Below are positions 9,397 through 23,710 of a stretch of DNA of 55,201 nt, piece after piece. Position 1 is the first letter of the stretch. Each line of letters starts with the position of its first letter. The stretch spans positions 1-55,201 of the forward strand of contig CALUSA010000004.1 of NCBI GenBank assembly GCA_944323275.1. The letters are read 5' to 3'. The notes below the pieces were generated by a model. It was not told the origin of the DNA. It did not search any database and saw only the letters and a program-made list of their open reading frames with translations. A program made the position numbers and the translations under genes. This DNA comes from Candidatus Gastranaerophilales bacterium (lineage in GTDB: Bacteria; Cyanobacteriota; Vampirovibrionia; Gastranaerophilales; Gastranaerophilaceae).

Positions 9397-9801
9397 ATGC
9401 AAATAAATAAAAACTATACAAAATCCCCTTCTTTCGGCGCAAAATTTTTGCACAGCGAGTCGTTAAAACAAATTGTGAAATATTCAATAGAACACAACAA
9501 ATTTGAAAAACTTAATCAGGCAAGAAAAAATATTGACTCGTCATTTTTTTTGACAAGGCTGCGTGTCGATGCAGGTATAAATGAAAAAGGCTTGCCTTAT
9601 GTTACGTTTACAAGATTTGAACCTAAGAAAAGCGTAAATGTTGCGCTTTCAATGGCTGATTTTCAACCGACAAAGATTAGGCTTTTTCAAAGTGAAAAGA
9701 AAGAAAATTTTTTAAAATTTGCATTGGAAAAAATAATCAAACTGGGCAACAATGCACCAAAAAATAATATGTACAAATATGTGGTTGTAAATAAAAAATA
9801 A
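9397..9801 (+). CDS. Unknown small protein with early PSFGAKF motif
   Basis: A 134-residue protein with no recognised domain. Residues 1-10 are polar and basic, followed by PSFGAKF (11-17), which matches the early [S/A/N]-F-x-[G/A] motif seen in several other proteins of this window. The remainder is basic and soluble (FEKLNQARKNIDSSFFLTRLRVDAG ... FLKFALEKIIKLGNN), with no membrane segment or classical signal peptide. An AAGGA Shine-Dalgarno lies 8 nt before the ATG. It stands alone downstream of repeat copy 2. The function is unknown. Confidence 0.7.
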   Translation: MQINKNYTKSPSFGAKFLHSESLKQIVKYSIEHNKFEKLNQARKNIDSSFFLTRLRVDAGINEKGLPYVTFTRFEPKKSVNVALSMADFQPTKIRLFQSEKKENFLKFALEKIIKLGNNAPKNNMYKYVVVNKK

Positions 9802-13281: not shown

Positions 13282-13956
13282 TTATAAATTCGGCAGGTTG
13301 AGTTTTTCTAAATCCTTTTTGTCTATTGGTTCGTCATAAGTTTGTTGTTTAAGGACGTCTTTATATTCAGCATCTGTTGCGTGTAATTCCGACAGACGCT
13401 GTTTTGCCTCTGTGTCCGACGGATTTGTTTTTATTGCTGTATTGTAGTGGAATTTTGCTTTTTCAATATCATTTAATTTTTCATAACAAATCCCGAGTCT
13501 GAGATTTGTCCTGTAATCGTTTTGAAACCCGTAAGAATACGCAAATGAGAAAAAATCTATTGCCTGAAAGTATTCTGCTTCTTTAAAAAATGCCTCTCCA
13601 AGATAATAGTTTACCTTCGGGTTTCGTTCATCTACGTTCAAAGCAACCATTAGAGCATTTTTTGCATCACGGGTGTTTCCTTGATAAAGAGAAATTTTTG
13701 CCATTCCGACAAGCGCATTTTGGTTTGATATGTCGACTCTTAGTGCCTGATAGTAATAATACTTTGCGGCTTTAAGATATTTTGCACTGTCTGTTTTGTC
13801 TGTAAGTTTTTCATAATGATTGAGTATTTTATCGCCTTTAACACAGTACGCTTCAGCCTGTGTTGTATCATGCAAAGGTTGGGCGCACACAGGTGATAAT
13901 GAAGTTATCGCAATAATTATGATTGATAATATTTTTATAATAAATGTTTTTTTCAT
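13282..13956 (-). CDS. Exported TPR-repeat protein
   Basis: A 224-residue protein with an N-terminal signal peptide (basic MKKTF, hydrophobic core to about residue 22, cleavage likely near VCAQ-P). About four tetratricopeptide repeats follow (AAKYYYYQALRVDISNQNALVGMAKI; AKNALMVALNVDERNPKVNYYLGEAFF; YRTNLRLGICYEKLNDIEKAKFHYNTAIKTNPSD). The C-terminus is acidic. It probably acts as a periplasmic protein-interaction scaffold. A Cys at about position 24 could hint at a lipoprotein, but the surrounding SPVCAQ is not a good lipobox. No partner is evident. Confidence 0.8.
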   Translation of the reverse strand: MKKTFIIKILSIIIIAITSLSPVCAQPLHDTTQAEAYCVKGDKILNHYEKLTDKTDSAKYLKAAKYYYYQALRVDISNQNALVGMAKISLYQGNTRDAKNALMVALNVDERNPKVNYYLGEAFFKEAEYFQAIDFFSFAYSYGFQNDYRTNLRLGICYEKLNDIEKAKFHYNTAIKTNPSDTEAKQRLSELHATDAEYKDVLKQQTYDEPIDKKDLEKLNLPNL

Positions 13957-14053: not shown

Positions 14054-14587
14054 GTGGTTACAAGTTTAATTTATTTTTATTTTTTGTTCTTTGCCTCAAT
14101 CACCTCTGCTCTCGGTGTGATATTTGCGCCTAAAATGTATTTGTCGGCACTGGCTTTATTTTTGTTTGTATGCTTTTCCGCTCTTATTTATCTGTATTTG
14201 AATTCAACATATCTTTCTGTTTTTCAATTTATTCTTTGCTCAATGTTTTTGTCTTTGTATATTTTTCTTTTATTAAAAAAAATAGGAAGATTAAATCTCG
14301 AGTTAAGGCTTGCACCTGTGTCTAAAATTGTTGTCAGCGGTGTGTTTGTGTTGTTGTTCGGAATGCTTTTCATCTTGTATTTTATGCAGGAATTTGACAG
14401 TTCCCTGTATTCTTTTTTCAATGTTGCAGTTGAAAAGTCTTTTAATTCCGTTAATTTTAAACATTATCTTTACCCTTTAAGCCTTGTCGGCATATTTATT
14501 CTCGTGACTACAGCGGTATTGAGGGTATTTCTTGATAATTCACTTGCCGTGGAACAACAAAAAGAAAATGAGGAAAGTAAATCATGA
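14054..14587 (+). CDS. nuoJ: NuoJ-like subunit of complex I membrane arm (degenerate)
   Basis: A 177-residue, five-helix membrane protein at the NuoJ position of a J-K-L-M-N gene order. It uses a GTG start with an AGGAG Shine-Dalgarno at 14042-14046. The N-terminal helix and the TM3 region (TYLSVFQFILCSMFLSLYIF) align with NuoJ by position, but the conserved Tyr-x-Gly-Ala of the TM3 pi-bulge is replaced by C62-S-M-F. In canonical complex I this region links quinone chemistry to the proton path. The assignment rests largely on gene order and topology. It overlaps nuoK by 4 bp. Confidence 0.7.
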   Translation: MVTSLIYFYFLFFASITSALGVIFAPKMYLSALALFLFVCFSALIYLYLNSTYLSVFQFILCSMFLSLYIFLLLKKIGRLNLELRLAPVSKIVVSGVFVLLFGMLFILYFMQEFDSSLYSFFNVAVEKSFNSVNFKHYLYPLSLVGIFILVTTAVLRVFLDNSLAVEQQKENEESKS

Positions 14588-14910
14588 TAAATTCATTGTT
14601 GACAGTAGGGCTGGCTCATTTTCTTGTTTTATCTTTAATCCTCTTTTTAACGGGACTTTTTGGTGTGCTTATTTCCCGTAATATGTTAAGAACGGTAATG
14701 TCGCTTTTTATAATGTCCGTGTCAGCCGTTATAAATTTTACCGCCTTTGGCTACTATTGTGACAATAGTATGGAAAACGCAAATATGATAGGTGTTTTTA
14801 TACTTATACTGTCTGTTATACAAACTATTATTGCGCTTGTTATTTTGTATAAAATTTATCAGGCAAATGAATATCTGGATACCGAAAAAATTAAAGACAA
14901 GGAGAATTGA
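14584..14910 (+). CDS. nuoK: NuoK-like subunit lacking both conserved glutamates
   Basis: A 108-residue, three-helix protein that matches NuoK in topology and landmarks (LFLTGLFGVLISRNMLRTVMSLFIMSVSAVINFTAF). The two intramembrane Glu residues conserved in NuoK (E36 and E72 in E. coli) are F42 and Q80 here. Both are considered important for proton translocation. The C-terminus carries a short charged tail (LDTEKIKDKEN). The start ATG overlaps the nuoJ stop, and the stop overlaps the nuoL ATG by one base. Confidence 0.8.
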   Translation: MINSLLTVGLAHFLVLSLILFLTGLFGVLISRNMLRTVMSLFIMSVSAVINFTAFGYYCDNSMENANMIGVFILILSVIQTIIALVILYKIYQANEYLDTEKIKDKEN

Positions 14911-16067
14911 TGGAATTTTTTACAGATAATATAAATCTGCTTATATTTCTTCCGCTTATTATGTGTTTGATAATAGGGTTTAACCGTTTAATCTCAAACC
15001 GTATAGACAAACCTACAATCTTTGCGATAAGTATAATATCTGCCTTTATATGCATGATATTTTCTGCAGGGGTATATGATTTTTCCGTAATAAAAAATTT
15101 ATCCTTAACAGTAAATTTTCAGTGGATGTCACTGGAAAATATAAACCTTTATCTCGGCACATATATTGATAAAACAGCGGTTATTTTTATACTTATTACG
15201 AACATTGCTGCGTTTTTTATACAAAATTTTGCCTTCTTCAAATTAAGAGAGCATAACGATTTTTCTCGTCTTTTGCTTTATATAAACTTTTTTGCCCTGG
15301 GCTTGAACGGTATATTTTTAAGCTCAAACCTTTTCCAGACGTATTTGTTTTGCGAGGTTGCCGGTGTTGCCAGCTACCTTTTGATAAATTTTGATTTTGA
15401 AAACAGAGCGGAATCAAAAGCCGCAATAAAATCGTATATTTTAAACAGAACAGGTGATTTGATTCTGCTTTTATGCGTACTTGTTACAATGTATTTTTCT
15501 GTTGTATATAACGAATTATCAGGGTTGTCGGCATTATCTTATTCAAATATGAATAACATTGCAGCGAGCATACATTCTCTGATGAGTGAGTCTGTTTTTG
15601 TATTTTTCTGTTCTTTATTGATGTTTGTCATAATAATGAAATTTATGCAGGCGTTTATATATATTACGTTTGAATCCGGCGGCAAAACCGCTACTGCTAA
15701 AATAATTTTGTATCAAAACAGTTTGTTTGCACTTGCCGGTATCTTTTTATTTGTAAGACTGAATCCGTTTTTCTTTGAGCTGGCTAAAAGTTTCTGGTGG
15801 ACGATTCCTGTATTGTTAGTGTTATTTGTATTTTTAGGTATTGCAAACAGAATGTTTATTCCGCTTTGTAGAGCTGCCGGCTGGATAGAAAAATATATTG
15901 TGGAAACGGTTATAAACTTTATTGCGCTGCTTTTTAGAGCATTGTCTTATGTAAGCGGACGTTTTCAGGGCGGAAATTTTCAATCTTATTTGATATATTC
16001 TTTGCTGGGGCTTGTGGCAATATTGATTTTTGTTTTGATATTTTATGTTGTACTGATAAATGTTTAA
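14910..16067 (+). CDS. nuoL: Shortened NuoL-like antiporter subunit
   Basis: Starting at the ATG at 14910 (TGATG overlap with nuoK, AGGAG Shine-Dalgarno at 14899-14903) gives 385 residues against the usual ~600. The N-terminal half is recognisable: YIDKTAVIFILITN, LLLYINFFALGLNG, the conserved Glu in LFCEVAGVASYLL, ILNRTGDLILLL, and a Lys in IIMKFMQAF at the TM7 Lys position. The TM8 His region (HAATMV in NuoL) reads LYQNSLF, and about seven helices of the second half-channel are missing. A C-terminal NuoL-like tail (AAGWIEKYIVETVINF ... GRFQGGNFQSYLIY) follows directly. The frame is intact, so this looks like an internal deletion maintained as a gene, not a frameshift. Confidence 0.75.
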   Translation: MEFFTDNINLLIFLPLIMCLIIGFNRLISNRIDKPTIFAISIISAFICMIFSAGVYDFSVIKNLSLTVNFQWMSLENINLYLGTYIDKTAVIFILITNIAAFFIQNFAFFKLREHNDFSRLLLYINFFALGLNGIFLSSNLFQTYLFCEVAGVASYLLINFDFENRAESKAAIKSYILNRTGDLILLLCVLVTMYFSVVYNELSGLSALSYSNMNNIAASIHSLMSESVFVFFCSLLMFVIIMKFMQAFIYITFESGGKTATAKIILYQNSLFALAGIFLFVRLNPFFFELAKSFWWTIPVLLVLFVFLGIANRMFIPLCRAAGWIEKYIVETVINFIALLFRALSYVSGRFQGGNFQSYLIYSLLGLVAILIFVLIFYVVLINV

Positions 16068-16082
16068 CAGAGGAATTTATAA

Positions 16083-17606
16083 ATGAATTTTTTATCTTTA
16101 ATATGGCTTATATTTCTTCCTGTAATAGCGGCAATAGTGATAATGCTGCCGCTGTTTCCGAATCATCAGGTTAAAATAAGACGTTTTGCAAAAGGGTTTG
16201 CCGGGTTGCATTTTGTTTATGCTCTTTTATTCCTGTTGTGTTTTGACACAAGTATGTACGGAATGTCGTTTGAAAAAGAATTAACCTTTTTTGGTATGAC
16301 ATGGCTCAAAACTTTGGGAATAAGCGCAAAATTTGCATTAGACGGGATAACGCTTTTGCTTTGTGTTCTGACAACATTTGTTGTTTTAATAACTCTGTTT
16401 ATGAGCAAAATGCACATAAGGACAAAACATAAATTGTATTATTCAATGGTATTTTTGCTGGAATCCGCAGTGCTGGGAATATTCTGCGCTAAAGATATGT
16501 TTTTGTTTTTTGTCTTCTGGGAATTGCTGCTTATCCCTGTTTATTTTATCGTTTCGCAGTGGGGAAATTCAGAAGCTAGAAATGCCGCAACAAAGTTCAC
16601 TGTCGGGTCTTTTGTTGCAAACATGTTTTTGTTCTTTGGAATGTTGATTTTGTACTATTATAATTTTGCGATAAGTAATGTTTTAACAGCCAATATCGAA
16701 TCGTTAAACATGGATGAAAAAATTTATCCGATGTGGTTTCAGATAATGGTTTTCGTAAATTTTTTCATCGGTTTTATAGTTCGCATACCGCTTGTGCCGT
16801 TTCACAACTGGTATCCTGATATCCAGAGCAAGGCTGCGGCACCGGTAAATATTTTGATTGCCGGACTGTTAAGTGCGACAGGTGTTTACGGTCTTATCCG
16901 TTTTAATATGCAGGTTTTCCCTGAAATATTTAAACTCTTTGCACCTGTTTTGATGGTATGGGGGCTTGTCAATATTCTTTATTGCGGAGCATTATCCGTT
17001 ATTCAGCAGGACATAAAAAAGATGGTTGCATACTCTAATATTGCGTCAGCAGGTTTTGTGCTGCTGGGGCTGGCTGCTCTTAATCAGACAGGTTTTAACG
17101 GAGCCGTATTTATGACAATAGCGGGAGCGATTGTGTACAGTGCTTTGTTTGTTGTAATTTCAAGCGTCCAGTTCAGAACAAAAACGACTTATATTACAGC
17201 ACTTGGCGGACTGGGGCAGGTTATGCCGAAATGTATGTATCTGGCACTTATCATTTGTTTTGCCGCAATCGGAGTTCCTTTTTTAATGATGTTTGCCCCA
17301 AAACTTATGGTGCTTGCCGGTACTATGCTTTCCAATCTTGACCGGCAGCTTCTGGTTAAAATCACTGCTGCTGTTGGACTGGGAGCAATGATGGTTTCCG
17401 CCGGATATATTTTGTATTTCTTTTACAAGGTATTTTGTTCAGTGCTGCTTGAACAGTGGAAAGGTGTTAAGGATTTGTCACCTCAGGAAACAGGAATTTT
17501 AAGTGCCCTGTGTCTTGTAATTGTATATTTTGGTATAAATCCTATGAGTATAATACAAATTTATCAGTCTGTTTCGACTATAATTCTGGATGTGCTTCAG
17601 GTATAA
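16083..17606 (+). CDS. nuoM: NuoM-like antiporter subunit with substituted channel residues
   Basis: A 507-residue, about 14-helix protein of normal NuoM length. The TM5 Glu is kept (FWELLLIPVYFIVSQWG). Three residues considered essential in E. coli NuoM differ at the same numbers: K234 is R (FIVRIPLVPFHNW), K265 is A (LLSATGVYG) and E407 is K (FAPKLMVLAG). The rest of the family pattern is present (PDIQSKAAAPVNILIAGLL, VIQQDIKKMVAYSNIASAG). In complex I the subunit forms one antiporter-like half-channel pair. The pattern suggests altered or lost pumping, but expression and folding seem preserved. It is 15 bp downstream of nuoL. Confidence 0.85.
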   Translation: MNFLSLIWLIFLPVIAAIVIMLPLFPNHQVKIRRFAKGFAGLHFVYALLFLLCFDTSMYGMSFEKELTFFGMTWLKTLGISAKFALDGITLLLCVLTTFVVLITLFMSKMHIRTKHKLYYSMVFLLESAVLGIFCAKDMFLFFVFWELLLIPVYFIVSQWGNSEARNAATKFTVGSFVANMFLFFGMLILYYYNFAISNVLTANIESLNMDEKIYPMWFQIMVFVNFFIGFIVRIPLVPFHNWYPDIQSKAAAPVNILIAGLLSATGVYGLIRFNMQVFPEIFKLFAPVLMVWGLVNILYCGALSVIQQDIKKMVAYSNIASAGFVLLGLAALNQTGFNGAVFMTIAGAIVYSALFVVISSVQFRTKTTYITALGGLGQVMPKCMYLALIICFAAIGVPFLMMFAPKLMVLAGTMLSNLDRQLLVKITAAVGLGAMMVSAGYILYFFYKVFCSVLLEQWKGVKDLSPQETGILSALCLVIVYFGINPMSIIQIYQSVSTIILDVLQV

Positions 17607-17631
17607 AATTGTAAGTGTGAGTGAGGAATAA

Positions 17632-19059
17632 ATGTCAGAACTAATATCTGCGTATTTACCGGAATTTGTAATACTTGTTTTTATAGTTATAAATCTTGTG
17701 TTTTCGCTGTTTTCAGGCACATCTGTATATCGTATATCAAAATGGACAACGCTTTTGGGAATTATTCTGGCAATAGGTTCTACGGTATATTTGCAGATTG
17801 AGCCTGAAGTTTACGCTTTTAATAATATGTTTTTGACAAATATTTATACGGTATTTTTCAAAATACTTATATTAATAAGCGGTTTTTTTCTTGTATTGCT
17901 TTCCCGTAATATGATAAGAGAAAAACGTGACAGAGCCTCCGAGTATTTTTGCGTATTTTTATCTGGACTTTTGTTTGCAATGTGTGCGGTCAGCTCGGTT
18001 AACTTTGTGTCGTTATTTGTTGCGCTGGAAGCACTTGGGCTGAGCTGTTATCTGCTTTTGTCGTTAAATAAAAATCCGAATGCAAAACAGCTTACCTTTG
18101 GTTATCTTGTGCAAAGTGCGGTTGTGTCGTCTTTGTTTTTAACGGGACTTTCTGTTATTTACGGCATGTGTGCACAGTTTGATTATGCAAAAGTAAGCCT
18201 GTGTTTCAGCCAGAATCCGTCGCAAATACTTTTGACCTTTGCTTTGTTGTTAATGATTTGTACAATGTTGTTTAAATTAGGTCTTGTGCCGTTTTCAAGC
18301 TGGCTGAGCGATACTTTTGAGGGCGCAAATTATCCTATAGGGGCATATATGTCCTGTGTTCCGGTGCTGGCTTGCTTCGGTGTGCTGTCCAGAATTTTAA
18401 TGACATTTTTAGCTTATACTTTTACTATAAAAATTGTGCTTGCCGTTATAGCTGTTTTGACAATATTTTTCGGTTCGCTGTCCGCAATAAGACAGGAAAA
18501 TCTAAAAAGATTGATGGCGTATTCAATGAGCGTTCAATCCGGAATAATGCTGCTGGGGTTGTGTGTATTTTCTGTTTACAGTCTTTCAAGCGTGTTGTTC
18601 TATCTGTTTTGCTATGTCTTTGTGAATATAGGTGCATGGGCTGCAATCATTTTGCTTTATAATTCCGCCAAACTTGAAAAATTAGACGATTTAAAAGGGA
18701 TTTTGTATAACAGACCCTATTACGTTATAGCTTTTACCGTAATTTTAATTGCGCTTGCCGGTCTTGCGCCAACCTGCGGTTTTGTTGCTAAATTGTACGT
18801 CTTTTCCGCTGTAGCACGTTCGGGGTTTGTATTTCTTCCTTTTTTGATGACTGCACTTGTCGCCTCAGTTATTATGATATATGCGTACTGGAGAATAATA
18901 CGTGCTATGTTCAGACGTATTGAAACAACGATTAATGCAGATACAAGACTTATCTCGTCAAAGTATATTTTGTATGCCTGTGCTGCAGCCTCGGTTGTTA
19001 TCTGTATTTTTGCCGATAAAATAATCCGCCTGTGCCAGCTTGTTGCGTATTATATGTAA
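17632..19059 (+). CDS. nuoN: NuoN-like antiporter subunit
   Basis: A 475-residue, about 13- to 14-helix protein and the last gene of the cluster. It is the best-preserved antiporter subunit. It has the TM5 Glu (FVALEALGLSCYLLLSL), the TM7 Lys (MLFKLGLVPFSSWLSDTFEGANYP), the loop IRQENLKRLMAYSMSVQSG and the TM12 Lys (GLAPTCGFVAKLYVF). The His of the usual PFHxW motif is Ser, and the TM8 Lys region reads SCVPVLACFG, without Lys. No catalytic-arm genes (nuoB-G, I) nor nuoA/nuoH are in the window, so what the module couples to is unknown. Confidence 0.85.
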   Translation: MSELISAYLPEFVILVFIVINLVFSLFSGTSVYRISKWTTLLGIILAIGSTVYLQIEPEVYAFNNMFLTNIYTVFFKILILISGFFLVLLSRNMIREKRDRASEYFCVFLSGLLFAMCAVSSVNFVSLFVALEALGLSCYLLLSLNKNPNAKQLTFGYLVQSAVVSSLFLTGLSVIYGMCAQFDYAKVSLCFSQNPSQILLTFALLLMICTMLFKLGLVPFSSWLSDTFEGANYPIGAYMSCVPVLACFGVLSRILMTFLAYTFTIKIVLAVIAVLTIFFGSLSAIRQENLKRLMAYSMSVQSGIMLLGLCVFSVYSLSSVLFYLFCYVFVNIGAWAAIILLYNSAKLEKLDDLKGILYNRPYYVIAFTVILIALAGLAPTCGFVAKLYVFSAVARSGFVFLPFLMTALVASVIMIYAYWRIIRAMFRRIETTINADTRLISSKYILYACAAASVVICIFADKIIRLCQLVAYYM

Positions 19060-19091: not shown

Positions 19092-19931
19092 TTATACATT
19101 TATTACAATTAAACCTGTCAGCATACCGATAATAACAAAAAATGCCGGCAGTTTGCTGCGGTACATAAGTATGGATTGGGGCAGAATCTCTCCGAAGACC
19201 ACATATAACATTGCACCGCTTGCAAAGCTTAAGCTGAGAGCAAGACCTAAAGGTCCGAGATCACCAATCCAGTAACCTAAAATTGCGCCTAATATTGTCG
19301 GGGCACCGGCTAAAGCAGTAATAAGTATTGCCATTCTTCGTCTTACCCCGCCGTTAATCAACGGAACAGCAATAGCCATACCTTCCGGTATGTTATGCAA
19401 GCCTATTAATACCGACAGAACAAGAGCAGAGCCTTGCATCAACCCGTTTGTATTTGCAAATGATGCGCCTATTGTCATCCCTTCCGGCAGATTGTGTAAA
19501 GCTATTGCACAAGCCATTATCACACCTGCAACAAATAATGATACGTTGTCATCGTGTTTTCTTATATGGACGGAAAGATGGTTGCTGTGTATAAGTTCAT
19601 CCAGGTCATCTGCTGTTTCGGGGTGAGCTTTGTCAATGTGCGAAACCTCATGGTTTGTTGCACGGTCGATGAATAAATTTAGCAGATAAACCAGTGCAAT
19701 ACCTATACAAATACCGATACAAACGGTATAAACACCTGTTTTTGTGTCGAGAGCACTCAGTATAAGGTCAAAACAAACTATTGCTATCATGACCCCTGCA
19801 GCAAAGCTCAAAAGCAGGCTTGCCGTTTTATTTGAGTCTTTTTTAAATAATGCGCCGATTATACCGCCCAGCCCTGTTCCGCCGATACCGGCTATGGCTG
19901 TAGCTTTTATTAATAATATTAATTGTTCCAA
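19092..19931 (-). CDS. ZIP-family divalent metal transporter
   Basis: A 279-residue, eight-helix ZIP transporter that imports Zn(II) (or Fe/Mn) into the cytoplasm. The two metal-binding helices carry HNLPEG (IALHNLPEGMTIGAS) and HNIPEG (IGLHNIPEGMAIAVP). The cytoplasmic loop between TM3 and TM4 is His/Asp-rich (HEVSHIDKAHPETADDLDELIHSNHLSVHIRKHDD). It resembles ZupT/GufA-type members. It is downstream of, and probably co-transcribed with, the P1B ATPase (19-bp gap), putting an import-type and an export-type protein under the same SmtB-like operators. That is unexpected if both handle zinc. Iron or manganese import, or intracellular balance, are alternatives. Confidence 0.88.
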   Translation of the reverse strand: MEQLILLIKATAIAGIGGTGLGGIIGALFKKDSNKTASLLLSFAAGVMIAIVCFDLILSALDTKTGVYTVCIGICIGIALVYLLNLFIDRATNHEVSHIDKAHPETADDLDELIHSNHLSVHIRKHDDNVSLFVAGVIMACAIALHNLPEGMTIGASFANTNGLMQGSALVLSVLIGLHNIPEGMAIAVPLINGGVRRRMAILITALAGAPTILGAILGYWIGDLGPLGLALSLSFASGAMLYVVFGEILPQSILMYRSKLPAFFVIIGMLTGLIVINV

Positions 19932-19950
19932 GTTATAAATACCTCTGTTA

Positions 19951-21831
19951 TTATTGTTTAATAAAATCAGATGTATGTAAAGCCCTCAGCGCATTTAAAA
20001 TTGCAATAAAGGTTACGCCGACATCAGCAAAAACTGCGCCCCACATAGTAACAAAACCGATTGCACCAAGGAGCAGGAATAACAATTTTATCCCTATTGC
20101 AAACACAATGTTTTGTTTTACTATGGTCATTGTTTTTCTGGCAATTTTTATCAAAACGTTTACCTTAGAAGGTTTGTCATCCATAATAACAACATCAGCA
20201 GCTTCTATTGCAGCGTCTGAGCCTAATGCCCCCATCGCAATACCTGCGTCTGCAAGAGTTAATACCGGTGCGTCGTTTATGCCGTCCCCTATAAATATAA
20301 CGCTTTTGTTTTTTTGTTTTTCTTTAATAAAATTTTCCGTAATTTCAACTTTTTGTGCAGGCAAAAGCTGAGCATAAACTCTGTCTATCCCAAGTTTTTG
20401 TGCAGTATTTTGTGCTGCTTTTTCGCTGTCGCCTGTCAGCATAACAATATTTTTAACGGAACCTTTTAACCCTTTTATCGCCGCAGCAGCATCGTCTTTA
20501 ATTTCGTCGCAAATTACCGCACAACCGAGATACTCATCGCCTTTGGCTACATAAACAAGTGTTCCTGCTTCGTCTGTTTTTTGATAATTTATATTGAACT
20601 TTTCCATTAAAAGCGCATTACCTGCCAGAACACGTTCACCGTTTACACAGGCTTCTACTCCTGTGCCGGCATGTTCTGTTACACAGGTGACAAGCTTTTC
20701 ATCTATATTTTTGCCGTAAGCTTTTTTTAGTGCAGCAGCAATAGGATGGTTTGAGTATGCTTCTGCCATTGCTGCATAGTAAAGAATTTTTTCCTGTGCG
20801 CCGCCAAGTATTTTCGTTACTCTAAATACACCTTTTGTTAAAGTGCCGGTTTTGTCAAATATTGCGGTTTCAACATGCGAAAGCACCTCGATATAATTGC
20901 TGCCTTTGATAAGCACACCGCATTTTGACGCACCGCCGATACCGGCAAAAAAGCTTAAAGGTACTGATATTACAAGTGCACACGGGCAGGAGATAACAAG
21001 GAAGGTCAATGCCCTGTAAGCCCAGACAGAAAACCGTGCACCCTCTATAAAAAGAGGCGGGATAATCGCAAGCAGCAGTGCACCCGCAACCACAGCCGGT
21101 GTATAATATCCGGCAAATTTTGTTATAAAGTTTTCTGTTTTTGTTTTTTTAGAGCTTGCATGTTCAACAAGTTCCAGTATTTTAGATACTGTTGATTCTC
21201 CGAATTCTTTTGTTACACGGATTTTTAAAGCCCCGTTTGTGTTTATACACCCGCTTAATACATTATCATCTTTTTTAACACTGACAGGAACAGATTCGCC
21301 TGTTAAAGCAGAGGTGTCCACAAGTGCTTCACCTTCTGTTACAACACCGTCTAACGGAATTTTTTCACCTGTTTTTACCGTTATAATGTCGTTAATATGA
21401 ACCATTGACGGTGTAACTTTTTCCGTTTTGCCGTCTTTTTCTATGTTTGCATAATCAGGACGGATATCCATAAGCGATTGTATGGATTTTCTGGATTTTT
21501 CAACGGCACAATGTTGAAAATATTCGCCTATTTGATATAACACCATAACCATTACCGCTTCGGGGTATTCTTTTATTGCGAAAGCTCCTAAGGTGGCAAT
21601 GCACATAAGAAAGTTTTCGTCAAAAATTTTGCCTTTAAATATATTTTTTAATGCACGGTATAAAATCTCCCAGCCGGCGAGCAGGTATGCTGCGGTAAAA
21701 ATAAAGAAGCTTGTCGTATCCTGTGCATTGAATATTAAACCGGCGGCTAAAATGACTGTTGCAAGAGCTATTCTGAGTAATAATGCTTTTTGATTGTCGT
21801 GTTCGTGACAGTGATTATGATGTTCGCACAT
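19951..21831 (-). CDS. P1B-type Zn/Cd/Pb-exporting ATPase
   Basis: A 626-residue heavy-metal ATPase of ZntA/CadA type. Instead of an N-terminal HMA domain it has a short His/Cys-rich start (MCEHHNHCHEHD). The core is complete: actuator motif TGES (SALTGESVPV), TM6 metal site SCPCALV, phosphorylation site DKTGTLTKG, HP motif (YSNHPIA), hinge GDGINDAP, and the C-terminal helix VFADVGVTFIAILNALRAL typical of the Zn/Cd subgroup. It exports metal from the cytoplasm. The ATG has a GAGGCG Shine-Dalgarno. Its promoter contains two SmtB-like operators (21880-21897 and 21848-21863). It is divergent from the sensor gene. Confidence 0.92.
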   Translation of the reverse strand: MCEHHNHCHEHDNQKALLLRIALATVILAAGLIFNAQDTTSFFIFTAAYLLAGWEILYRALKNIFKGKIFDENFLMCIATLGAFAIKEYPEAVMVMVLYQIGEYFQHCAVEKSRKSIQSLMDIRPDYANIEKDGKTEKVTPSMVHINDIITVKTGEKIPLDGVVTEGEALVDTSALTGESVPVSVKKDDNVLSGCINTNGALKIRVTKEFGESTVSKILELVEHASSKKTKTENFITKFAGYYTPAVVAGALLLAIIPPLFIEGARFSVWAYRALTFLVISCPCALVISVPLSFFAGIGGASKCGVLIKGSNYIEVLSHVETAIFDKTGTLTKGVFRVTKILGGAQEKILYYAAMAEAYSNHPIAAALKKAYGKNIDEKLVTCVTEHAGTGVEACVNGERVLAGNALLMEKFNINYQKTDEAGTLVYVAKGDEYLGCAVICDEIKDDAAAAIKGLKGSVKNIVMLTGDSEKAAQNTAQKLGIDRVYAQLLPAQKVEITENFIKEKQKNKSVIFIGDGINDAPVLTLADAGIAMGALGSDAAIEAADVVIMDDKPSKVNVLIKIARKTMTIVKQNIVFAIGIKLLFLLLGAIGFVTMWGAVFADVGVTFIAILNALRALHTSDFIKQ

Positions 21832-21847
21832 AAACGCCTCTTTTCAT

Positions 21848-21863
21848 TTGAATATTTGTTCAA
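21848..21863 (-). promoter_or_regulatory. SmtB-type operator A, ATPase leader
   Basis: TTGAATATTTGTTCAA is a near-perfect inverted repeat of the TGAAyA...TGTTCA type bound by ArsR/SmtB zinc sensors. It lies between the ATPase -10 box and start codon, as a second operator behind the one inside the promoter. Confidence 0.75.
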
Positions 21864-21873
21864 TTATACTATC

Positions 21874-21903
21874 ATTATAGTTGAATAATTGTTCAACTGT
21901 CAA
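21874..21903 (-). promoter_or_regulatory. P1B ATPase promoter with operator B in the spacer
   Basis: On the minus strand, TTGACA (21898-21903) and TATAAT (21874-21879) are separated by exactly 18 bp. That spacer is itself the palindromic operator GTTGAATAATTGTTCAAC (+ strand, 21880-21897). The arrangement implies direct occlusion of sigma-70 binding, or DNA distortion, by the apo-repressor and release on zinc binding. Confidence 0.88.
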
Positions 21904-21941
21904 GTGTAAAAGATTAAAAAATAACTTTTTCTTAATATAAA

Positions 21942-21971
21942 TTGACAATTGAACAACTGTTCATGTATAAT
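21942..21971 (+). promoter_or_regulatory. Sensor-gene promoter with operator C in the spacer
   Basis: TTGACA (21942-21947), an 18-bp spacer and TATAAT (21966-21971). The operator TTGAACAACTGTTCAT (21949-21964) fills the spacer, mirroring the divergent ATPase promoter. The sensor is therefore probably autoregulated. Confidence 0.88.
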
Positions 21972-21990
21972 AATCTGTACAGGGGGTGCC

Positions 21991-22341
21991 ATGGACAATC
22001 GTAATATTGACAATGAAGCCATAAATCAGGAACTGGTCAACAAAATTAAGCCTAATATGCCGCAAAAAGAGTTGTTATATGATTTATCAGATTTTTTTAA
22101 GGTAATGGGGGATAGCACACGCATTCAGCTTTTGTGGGCATTAGAAGAAAGTGAGCTTTGTGTGGGGGAGCTGGCTGCGATTCTTGATATGACAAAATCT
22201 GCCGTATCGCATCAGCTTAAGGTACTGCGCACCGCAAAGCTTGTACGTTCGCAAAAAAGAGGCAAGAATGTTTATTACTCGTTGAATGATGAACATGTGC
22301 AAACTATTGTAAAAATGGCATTAGAACACGTATGCGAATAA
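21991..22341 (+). CDS. ArsR/SmtB-family zinc-responsive repressor
   Basis: The ATG at 21991, with AGGGGGT at 21981-21987, gives 116 residues. The in-frame TTG at 21949 lies inside the operator and before the -10 box, so I reject it. The winged helix is complete (FKVMGDSTRIQLLWAL; recognition helix TKSAVSHQLKVLRTAKLV; wing KRGKNVYYSL). The alpha-5 metal site DxHx10HxxE is exact (D100, H102, H113, E116), which points to Zn(II) sensing as in SmtB/CzrA. The alpha-3 ELCxC site is reduced to ELCVGE, losing one Cys. It represses its own gene and the divergent ATPase/ZIP genes via the operators at 21848-21964. Confidence 0.93.
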   Translation: MDNRNIDNEAINQELVNKIKPNMPQKELLYDLSDFFKVMGDSTRIQLLWALEESELCVGELAAILDMTKSAVSHQLKVLRTAKLVRSQKRGKNVYYSLNDEHVQTIVKMALEHVCE

Positions 22342-22427: not shown

Positions 22428-23138
22428 TTATACAATCTGAGGTATATCCGTAAAACCTATGGTGTCATAATCGAATTCGATACCTCTGTAATAATTCCAG
22501 GGGTTTCGTGCTGACGGGTCTGCCGGGGCTAGTTTTGTATAACGTTGAATATTAGGGTCAAATTTTATGTCGTTTCTTTCCGTAACAATTTTAGGCATAA
22601 TCCTCAAATGCTCTTGCATTTTTGGGATTACCTCCTGTATATATTGTTCTGCAGTTTCTCCTTTGTCAGGACGGAAAATTTTGCCCACGCAAATAGTTTC
22701 TGAAAGAGCTTCCATAAGCGGTTCATCTTTTCTTCTTAAGCCTTTTATCACATCGGGGTGTACAAATTTGGGCAATTCTCTGTCTGCCATAAATTTATTA
22801 TAGAATTTTTTTGCGTCGATATATCGCAAATCAAATTTTAACCCCTGCGGCATCTTATCTTTAAATATATCCAAAATATTGCGTTTTTTCTCTGTACCGC
22901 TGATTGTAACAAGAAGATTGTCATCTTCTAATCTGTGGAGATAAGGAATAATCCTTTCTTTTAAAGCGTTTAGCGGTCCCTGGCTGATATCAATGATTTC
23001 GCCTGAGATAACGTCTTTAATCACGTTATTAACAGCTACCCTTGCTCCAAAAGCCGGATGATTTTCTTTATTTTGTTTGTTGACACCTGTATTATGCCTG
23101 TTGTTATTAAAATTATTATTAATTGAGTTGATTTTCAT
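22428..23138 (-). CDS. Unknown protein with Asn-rich start and PAFGARV motif
   Basis: A 236-residue protein with no recognised domain. The first 27 residues are very Asn-rich and polar (MKINSINNNFNNNRHNTGVNKQ...), followed by PAFGARV (28-34). The remainder is soluble, alpha/beta-like and Pro/charged-rich (ISQGPLNALKERIIPYLHRLEDDNLLVTISG; GLRRKDEPLMEALSETICVG). There is no hydrophobic signal. It lies just downstream of another protein with the same N-terminal style (23159-23710), 20 bp apart, probably one operon. The start is set by Asn codons immediately after the ATG and the AT-rich upstream sequence; no strong Shine-Dalgarno is seen. Confidence 0.75.
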   Translation of the reverse strand: MKINSINNNFNNNRHNTGVNKQNKENHPAFGARVAVNNVIKDVISGEIIDISQGPLNALKERIIPYLHRLEDDNLLVTISGTEKKRNILDIFKDKMPQGLKFDLRYIDAKKFYNKFMADRELPKFVHPDVIKGLRRKDEPLMEALSETICVGKIFRPDKGETAEQYIQEVIPKMQEHLRIMPKIVTERNDIKFDPNIQRYTKLAPADPSARNPWNYYRGIEFDYDTIGFTDIPQIV

Positions 23139-23158: not shown

Positions 23159-23710
23159 TTATCCGGCATTAGCTATTTGAGGAGATTCATTCTCATATAG
23201 ATATTTAATTACCGAGTCTTGATTGTGTGTTCTTATAAATTGATTGAACTGATTAGTGGCATTTGTTTCGCCGAGTTTGCCGTATTGCATGCTAAACATA
23301 GGCATATAGCTTTGACCGTCTAAAAATCCGGCAAATTCATCACTGCCCTGTCTGAAAGAGCTTGCAATGTGTTCCGGAAATTGGAAGGTGCTGCTGTTTC
23401 TGTTGGCTATATAGTTTTTTAATTCCCAATCTTTTGCTTTATTTCTTATAAACGAAACTTTTATATCACGGAAGAAATCGCCGCTGACCTGTATAACGGT
23501 ATGGAACATCGGGAATTTTTCTTCCAGAGCGGGTTTAACGTTTTTAATCATTCTCCAGATACCGGGACCGTCCTCGTACAGATTTAAAATATCCTGTTGT
23601 TTTAGACCCTTAACATAAACACCATTAAAAGACGGATTTTGTTTCTGCTGATTTTTTTCAGCAAAATTGATGCGATTTTGTACATTCGCAGAGATTGCAG
23701 TAACTTTCAT
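23159..23710 (-). CDS. Unknown protein with PSFNGVYV motif
   Basis: A 183-residue soluble protein of unknown function. The N-terminus is polar and Asn/Gln-rich (MKVTAISANVQNR ... KNQQKQN) and leads into PSFNGVYV (residues 26-33), the same early-motif style as its downstream neighbour. The rest contains charged helices and aromatic residues (GPGIWRMIKNVKPALEEKFPMFHTVIQVSGDFFRDIKVSFIRNKAKDW). No transmembrane segment is visible. An AAGGAAAAAG stretch upstream on the minus strand is a plausible ribosome-binding site. Confidence 0.75.
   Translation of the reverse strand: MKVTAISANVQNRINFAEKNQQKQNPSFNGVYVKGLKQQDILNLYEDGPGIWRMIKNVKPALEEKFPMFHTVIQVSGDFFRDIKVSFIRNKAKDWELKNYIANRNSSTFQFPEHIASSFRQGSDEFAGFLDGQSYMPMFSMQYGKLGETNATNQFNQFIRTHNQDSVIKYLYENESPQIANAG

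Follow-up and report, generated by a model that had tools for sequence, protein, structure and literature searches.

The nuoJKLMN cluster and its surroundings

The window, i.e. the whole stretch of 55,201 nucleotides analysed here, belongs to a Candidatus Gastranaerophilales MAG of 2.27 Mb that consists of 165 contigs and is 97% complete. It carries a cluster of five genes in the order nuoJKLMN on the plus strand (Table 1). All frames are intact and neighbouring genes overlap or lie at most 26 bases apart, so that coordinates and overlaps agree with the original prediction of five intact, well-coupled genes. An AGGAG ribosome site is located ahead of the nuoJ start codon, GTG, and a search for sigma-70-type promoters gave matches no more frequent than in shuffles. 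Pfam and NCBIfam assigned all five products, and hence the membrane subunit set J, K, L, M and N, to Nuo subunits. The profile matches identify NuoM, NuoN and NuoK as clear Nuo proteins, but are weak for J and partial for L, in which the NuoL models cover the first ~300 residues and nothing beyond. The nuoJ-like gene has the highest evolutionary rate among the five. NuoM of the window is 70-91% identical to NuoM of many Candidatus Gastranaerophilales MAGs.

Table 1. Genes of the nuoJKLMN cluster and neighbouring features (window positions; residues in E. coli numbering).
Feature	Position	Strand	Properties
TPR protein gene	13282..13956	-	signal-like N-terminus (by eye); divergent from nuoJ
nuoJ-like	14054..14587	+	177 aa; PF00499 E 1.7e-5, below curated cut-off; TM3 Tyr59 to Cys
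nuoK	14584..14910	+	108 aa; PF00420 E 2.6e-16; E36 to F, E72 to Q
short nuoL	14907..16067	+	386 aa, or 385 aa from ATG at 14910; internally deleted
nuoM	16083..17606	+	507 aa; above TIGR01972 cut-off; K234 to R, K265 to A, H348 to G, E407 to K
nuoN	17632..19059	+	475 aa; E133, K217, K395 retained; K247 to V, K158 to G
ZIP-type metal transporter, P-type metal ATPase-like, ArsR-like regulator	19092-22341		last two by eye
small protein 1	9397-9801		N-terminal PSFGA/PAFGA/PSFNG-like motif shared by the three small proteins
small protein 2	22428-23138		shared motif
small protein 3	23159-23710		shared motif

The order nuoJKLMN is constant between loci while the flanking genes differ, and no conserved soluble enzyme gene was found beside the cluster among the flanking families inspected. 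The TPR gene adjoins nuoJ in all 30 loci with a short NuoL that were compared, several intact clusters have a homologue next to nuoA, and the nuoJ of genus g45 has a TPR gene as its direct neighbour, which matches the arrangement in the window. We considered the TPR protein as an obligate nuo partner and rejected this role: the closest copies occur in nuoM-bearing genomes, yet a profile search retrieved related TPR genes from genomes without nuo as well, and in g56 the scores were equal whether or not a species had a nuoM match. The TPR gene is linked to the cluster, and we claim no more than this linkage.

Several features of the flanks were noted in passing. In four loci (L025, L028, L029, L035) the TPR gene is extended to ~297-352 aa, and nuoN is followed by a run of genes that by eye resemble those of flagellar export. 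Small proteins 2 and 3 (families f7 and f8) recur beside nuoN in several relatives; the placement of the metal genes just downstream of nuoN is not conserved in relatives.

Loss of the redox arm and selection on the remaining genes

The original prediction had noticed the absence of nuoA-I from the window and proposed a search of the rest of the genome, which extended this absence: profiles for NuoD (PF00346), NuoH (PF00146) and NuoB (PF01058) found no match anywhere in the window's genome. These profiles were positive in 11 of 14 control genomes, and PF00146 was found in intact relatives, unlike in the window's genome. Within the cluster, to which this part of the search was confined, NuoA, NuoC and NuoI were not found either. 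All three Proton_antipo_M genes of the genome lie in the nuoJKLMN cluster. A NuoD protein search across the genus was negative, and 17 of its 23 species lack any NuoD- or NuoB-type gene. The genomes of the other six carry genes of both types side by side, away from nuoJKLMN and with scores of ~100 bits, and these pairs probably represent the hydrogenase-related complex described for gut Melainabacteria (PMC3787301). One example of this second cluster is G081:C9:86796-93480; the window's genome is among those without one.

The short NuoL is present in all 23 species of the genus examined. It marks a clade of three genera (g1, g43, g51), whose 30 compared loci encode a NuoL of 384-387 aa and keep all five frames open (150/150). 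The genomes compared, all of them MAGs, span intact, intermediate and membrane-only clusters within one family. Intact relatives (L031, L067, L068, L083, L086 and others) possess nuoABCDHIJKLMN, i.e. 11 subunits. Three species of g16 (L066, L078, L079) have nuoAHJKLMN with a full-length NuoL, and L033 has the same set with a NuoL of 478 aa. In g38 (L080, L081) we found nuoHJKLMN with a NuoL of 574-575 aa, J being undetected in one of the two, and in g45 (L082) nuoJKLMN with a NuoL of 636 aa. Taken together, clusters without a redox arm beyond the short-NuoL clade (g16, g38, g45, L033) have a NuoL of 478-649 aa and variably contain NuoA and NuoH. Among 288 genomes of the family, NuoM (E<=1e-60) was detected in 96 and NuoD in 59; the surplus of NuoM falls mostly to g1, g43, g51, g16, g38 and g45, plus a few fragmentary genomes.

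In an IF2 tree, g1, g43 and g51 form one clade (100/100), and g45 is placed within a group of intact lineages. A single origin of all membrane-only states including g45 was rejected (p-AU 6e-40); therefore, at least two losses of the redox arm occurred in the family, the g45 case resting on one genome that is 85% complete. A common origin was not rejected for the short-NuoL clade together with g16 and g38 (p 0.44) or with g16 alone (p 0.14).

Between near relatives, the median dN/dS was 0.086 for J, 0.065 for K, 0.068 for L, 0.041 for M and 0.033 for N, at dS values above 1 that are partly saturated. The closer and unsaturated pair L008/L009 (dS 0.15-0.45) gave 0.014-0.12, and intact genes of g41 gave a comparable 0.02-0.11. 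Given these low ratios and the open frames at all 30 loci, the nuoJKLMN genes are under purifying selection and are not decaying. Decay in all relatives, named beforehand as a possible refutation, was not borne out for the window's clade by these checks of dN/dS and conservation. As a separate observation, g16 appears to evolve faster, with a higher but saturated dN/dS of 0.13-0.5.

Channel residues and the anatomy of NuoL

Residues were called, in E. coli numbering, after aligning the sequences with those of E. coli and of seven intact relatives in MAFFT, and we take TM numbers to follow those of known complex I structures. The intact relatives match E. coli at the tested sites of NuoL, NuoM and NuoN except for naturally variable ones (H334, D400, D542 and D563 of L, H322 of M, H224 and H305 of N). 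The alignment agrees with the predicted R, A and K at NuoM positions 234, 265 and 407 and adds the change at H348. An artefact of poor alignment, in which a better one would restore the missing residues, is rejected, as the losses of NuoK E36, NuoM K265 and H348 and NuoN K247 persist. Throughout the 30 loci of the clade, NuoK E36, a glutamate in all intact relatives, is F, L or C; NuoM K234 is R; and NuoM K265 is A, N, C, S or I. NuoM H348 is lost across the clade, E407 is K in 29 loci and R in one, and NuoN carries V or P in place of K247 and G in place of K158. The predicted changes of NuoJ Tyr59 and NuoK E72 are likewise present in the window, but both sites vary in some intact relatives too and are therefore weak markers of loss. 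The membrane-only lineages outside the clade show partly different losses; none of them retains NuoM E407, and K265 survives in a single g16 species only.

The loss of residues is patterned rather than wholesale. In the half of NuoL that remains, conserved charged residues have been kept more often than nonpolar ones (7/9 vs 6/31); the corresponding counts are 9/17 vs 19/40 in NuoM and 4/8 vs 12/17 in NuoN. The TM5-TM7 pair tends to be preserved, and all three subunits have lost the central TM8 residue (H254 to Q in L, together with the K265 and K247 replacements of M and N). In NuoN, E133 and K217 are mostly and K395 is always retained across the clade. The claim that NuoN alone keeps most channel residues nevertheless fails, as NuoN lacks its central Lys and the NuoL half keeps E144, D178 and K229 at all 30 loci.

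The changed NuoM sites differ in their weight. We take K235 of Nqo13 to be the equivalent of E. coli NuoM K265. Isolated T. thermophilus modules no longer conduct protons when Nqo13 carries K235M (PMC11496545), whereas NuoM E407K in the complete E. coli complex reduces pumping yet leaves 1.5 H+/e- (PMC9271201). The importance assigned to these sites by the original prediction thus holds for K265 and not for E407 by itself, and it is K265 that carries the argument for a non-pumping state.

NuoL is as short as predicted, but the missing helices result from an internal deletion and not from truncation of its end. The protein consists of an N-terminal half that extends to roughly residue 280 of the E. 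coli protein, followed by a lateral-helix-like C-terminal stretch and a final TM; the second half-channel is deleted and Pro234 of TM7 is replaced by Phe at all 30 loci. An AlphaFold2 model (mean pLDDT 77, pTM 0.76) contains one helix spanning 296-353 and a final one from 358 to 385, the C-terminus being of low confidence (pLDDT 44-60). In VIA-align, the fold comes closest to NdhF from T. elongatus and to NuoL from E. coli, at Z about 30. Residues 2-294 are matched to NuoL 1-280 (Z about 30), and with several structures the match continues to ~331 in alignment with the lateral-helix region (about 545-604), on which we base the internal position of the deletion and the apparent retention of the lateral brace. 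E. coli complex I becomes fragile when the end of NuoL is truncated (PMC3274701). With this brace apparently retained and the TM5 Glu and TM7 Lys/Arg pairs largely kept, the L-M-N-K-J array probably still assembles.

A proposed membrane-only derivative of complex I and its possible roles

An 11-subunit complex I has been described for gut Melainabacteria and Gastranaerophilales (PMC3787301, PMC8235220). The cluster shares its gene order J-K-L-M-N, its NuoM is 33-46% identical to that of the family's intact clusters, and it is directly homologous to this complex and to cyanobacterial NDH-1, in line with the nearest folds of NuoL. It differs by the missing subunits, NuoB, D and H from the genome and A, C and I from the cluster, by the deletion in NuoL and by proton-channel residues that are not conserved (NuoK E36, NuoM K265, NuoN K247, second half of NuoL). 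In the searchable literature we found no description of a membrane-only complex I in Gastranaerophilales, although papers beyond its reach may differ; the largest recent survey, from 2025, left out Candidatus genomes (PMC12361115).

We hypothesize here that nuoJKLMN encodes a five-subunit membrane complex that would have arisen by reduction of the 11-subunit complex I of Gastranaerophilales, with loss of the peripheral electron-transfer arm and of the coupling subunits A and H as judged from gene content (for A, that of the cluster). Redox-driven pumping would then be impossible because nothing is left to drive it, and the loss of the central TM8 residues of L, M and N, of NuoK E36 and of the second half-channel of NuoL would probably have cut the transmembrane proton wires. 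The brace-like stretch and last TM of NuoL would hold the array together, and its job may be that of a stable, non-translocating assembly that serves in structure or regulation, possibly together with the TPR protein. To such an assembled, non-redox and non-translocating complex under selection we give about an even chance. An unrelated soluble partner might have escaped detection. The non-pumping state is suggested by sequence as well as by gene content, and the selection on the genes indicates that the module may have been re-purposed. The predicted module, retained but non-pumping or re-purposed, is therefore partly supported and the best-supported reading: it agrees with the selection, the missing redox arm and the residue losses at all 30 loci, and the statement on NuoN and two of the markers did not stand.

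The better survival of charged residues in the first half of NuoL could also reflect some persisting movement of ions or protons. A gated conduit, i.e. a passive or pmf-driven H+/cation channel or exchanger that works without a redox arm in the manner of Mrp antiporters, appears unlikely; it would use the retained half-channels formed by TM5 Glu and TM7 Lys, along with the TM12 Lys of NuoM and NuoN. The retained residues of NuoL and NuoN would suit it, protons pass through isolated antiporter modules in liposomes (PMC11496545), and E. coli complex I tolerates NuoM E407K (PMC9271201). However, those Nqo12 and Nqo13 modules, which likewise function as antiporter-like subunits without a redox arm, are engineered single subunits with intact channel residues, whereas the window presents a natural set of five genes that has lost the middle Lys, and loss of this Lys blocked conduction in Nqo13 (PMC11496545). 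The missing central TM8 residues of three subunits, the deleted second half of NuoL and its lost TM7 Pro argue against a conduit as well. Mrp antiporters also combine relatives of NuoL/M/N and NuoK without redox subunits, but by NCBIfam profiles the L, M and N products score as Nuo and not as Mrp type (372.6 bits for NuoM with TIGR01972 vs 143 with the best antiporter-D model), and inspection of the flanking gene families, rather than a profile search, turned up no recognisable gene of the MrpB, E, F or G type.

It is improbable that the arm is coupled to an unrecognised electron-transfer or enzymatic module elsewhere in the genome that replaces the lost subunits. The NuoD/NuoB-type cluster of six genomes could provide one, but the other 17, including that of the window, do not have it, no conserved soluble enzyme gene adjoins nuoJKLMN, and NuoH, the usual interface, is lost as well. 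In inorganic-carbon uptake by DabAB, the NuoL-like DabB acts together with DabA, and a NuoL relative thus works without the redox subunits of complex I. DabA was rejected as a partner here since its profile (PF10070) had no match in any of the 23 genus genomes, with two positive controls.

Any probability left beyond these three readings belongs to decay, artefact or something we have not thought of. Slow decay after loss of the redox arm would fit the unequal erosion of residues and NuoL length between sister lineages and the raised ratios of g16, but for the window's clade it is disfavoured and quite improbable given the open frames, the low dN/dS, the constant length of NuoL, the fixed replacements NuoM K234R and E407K and the conservation of NuoM, with 70-91% identity, across the clade. 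An artefact of incomplete MAGs or misassembly, conceivable for a genome in 165 contigs, is rejected as highly improbable because the TPR gene and the five-gene unit recur in 30 loci with varied flanks from many assemblies, several of them 99% complete.

The usual view holds that the membrane arm of complex I is useless without the redox arm. In the Gastranaerophilales, by contrast, membrane arms may repeatedly have outlived it, and the three-genus clade may have gained a stable new complex with a selected non-redox, non-pumping function, a proposal as apt to prove right as wrong. If true, this complex might act as a gated ion path or as a structural membrane platform. Nature's own dissection experiment, in which a single family harbours clusters that are intact, intermediate or reduced, provides a natural series in which to ask what the membrane arm is capable of by itself and to tell residues that serve pumping from those that serve assembly. 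It also calls for caution, as the presence of nuoL, nuoM and nuoN in gut Melainabacteria is no proof of proton pumping.
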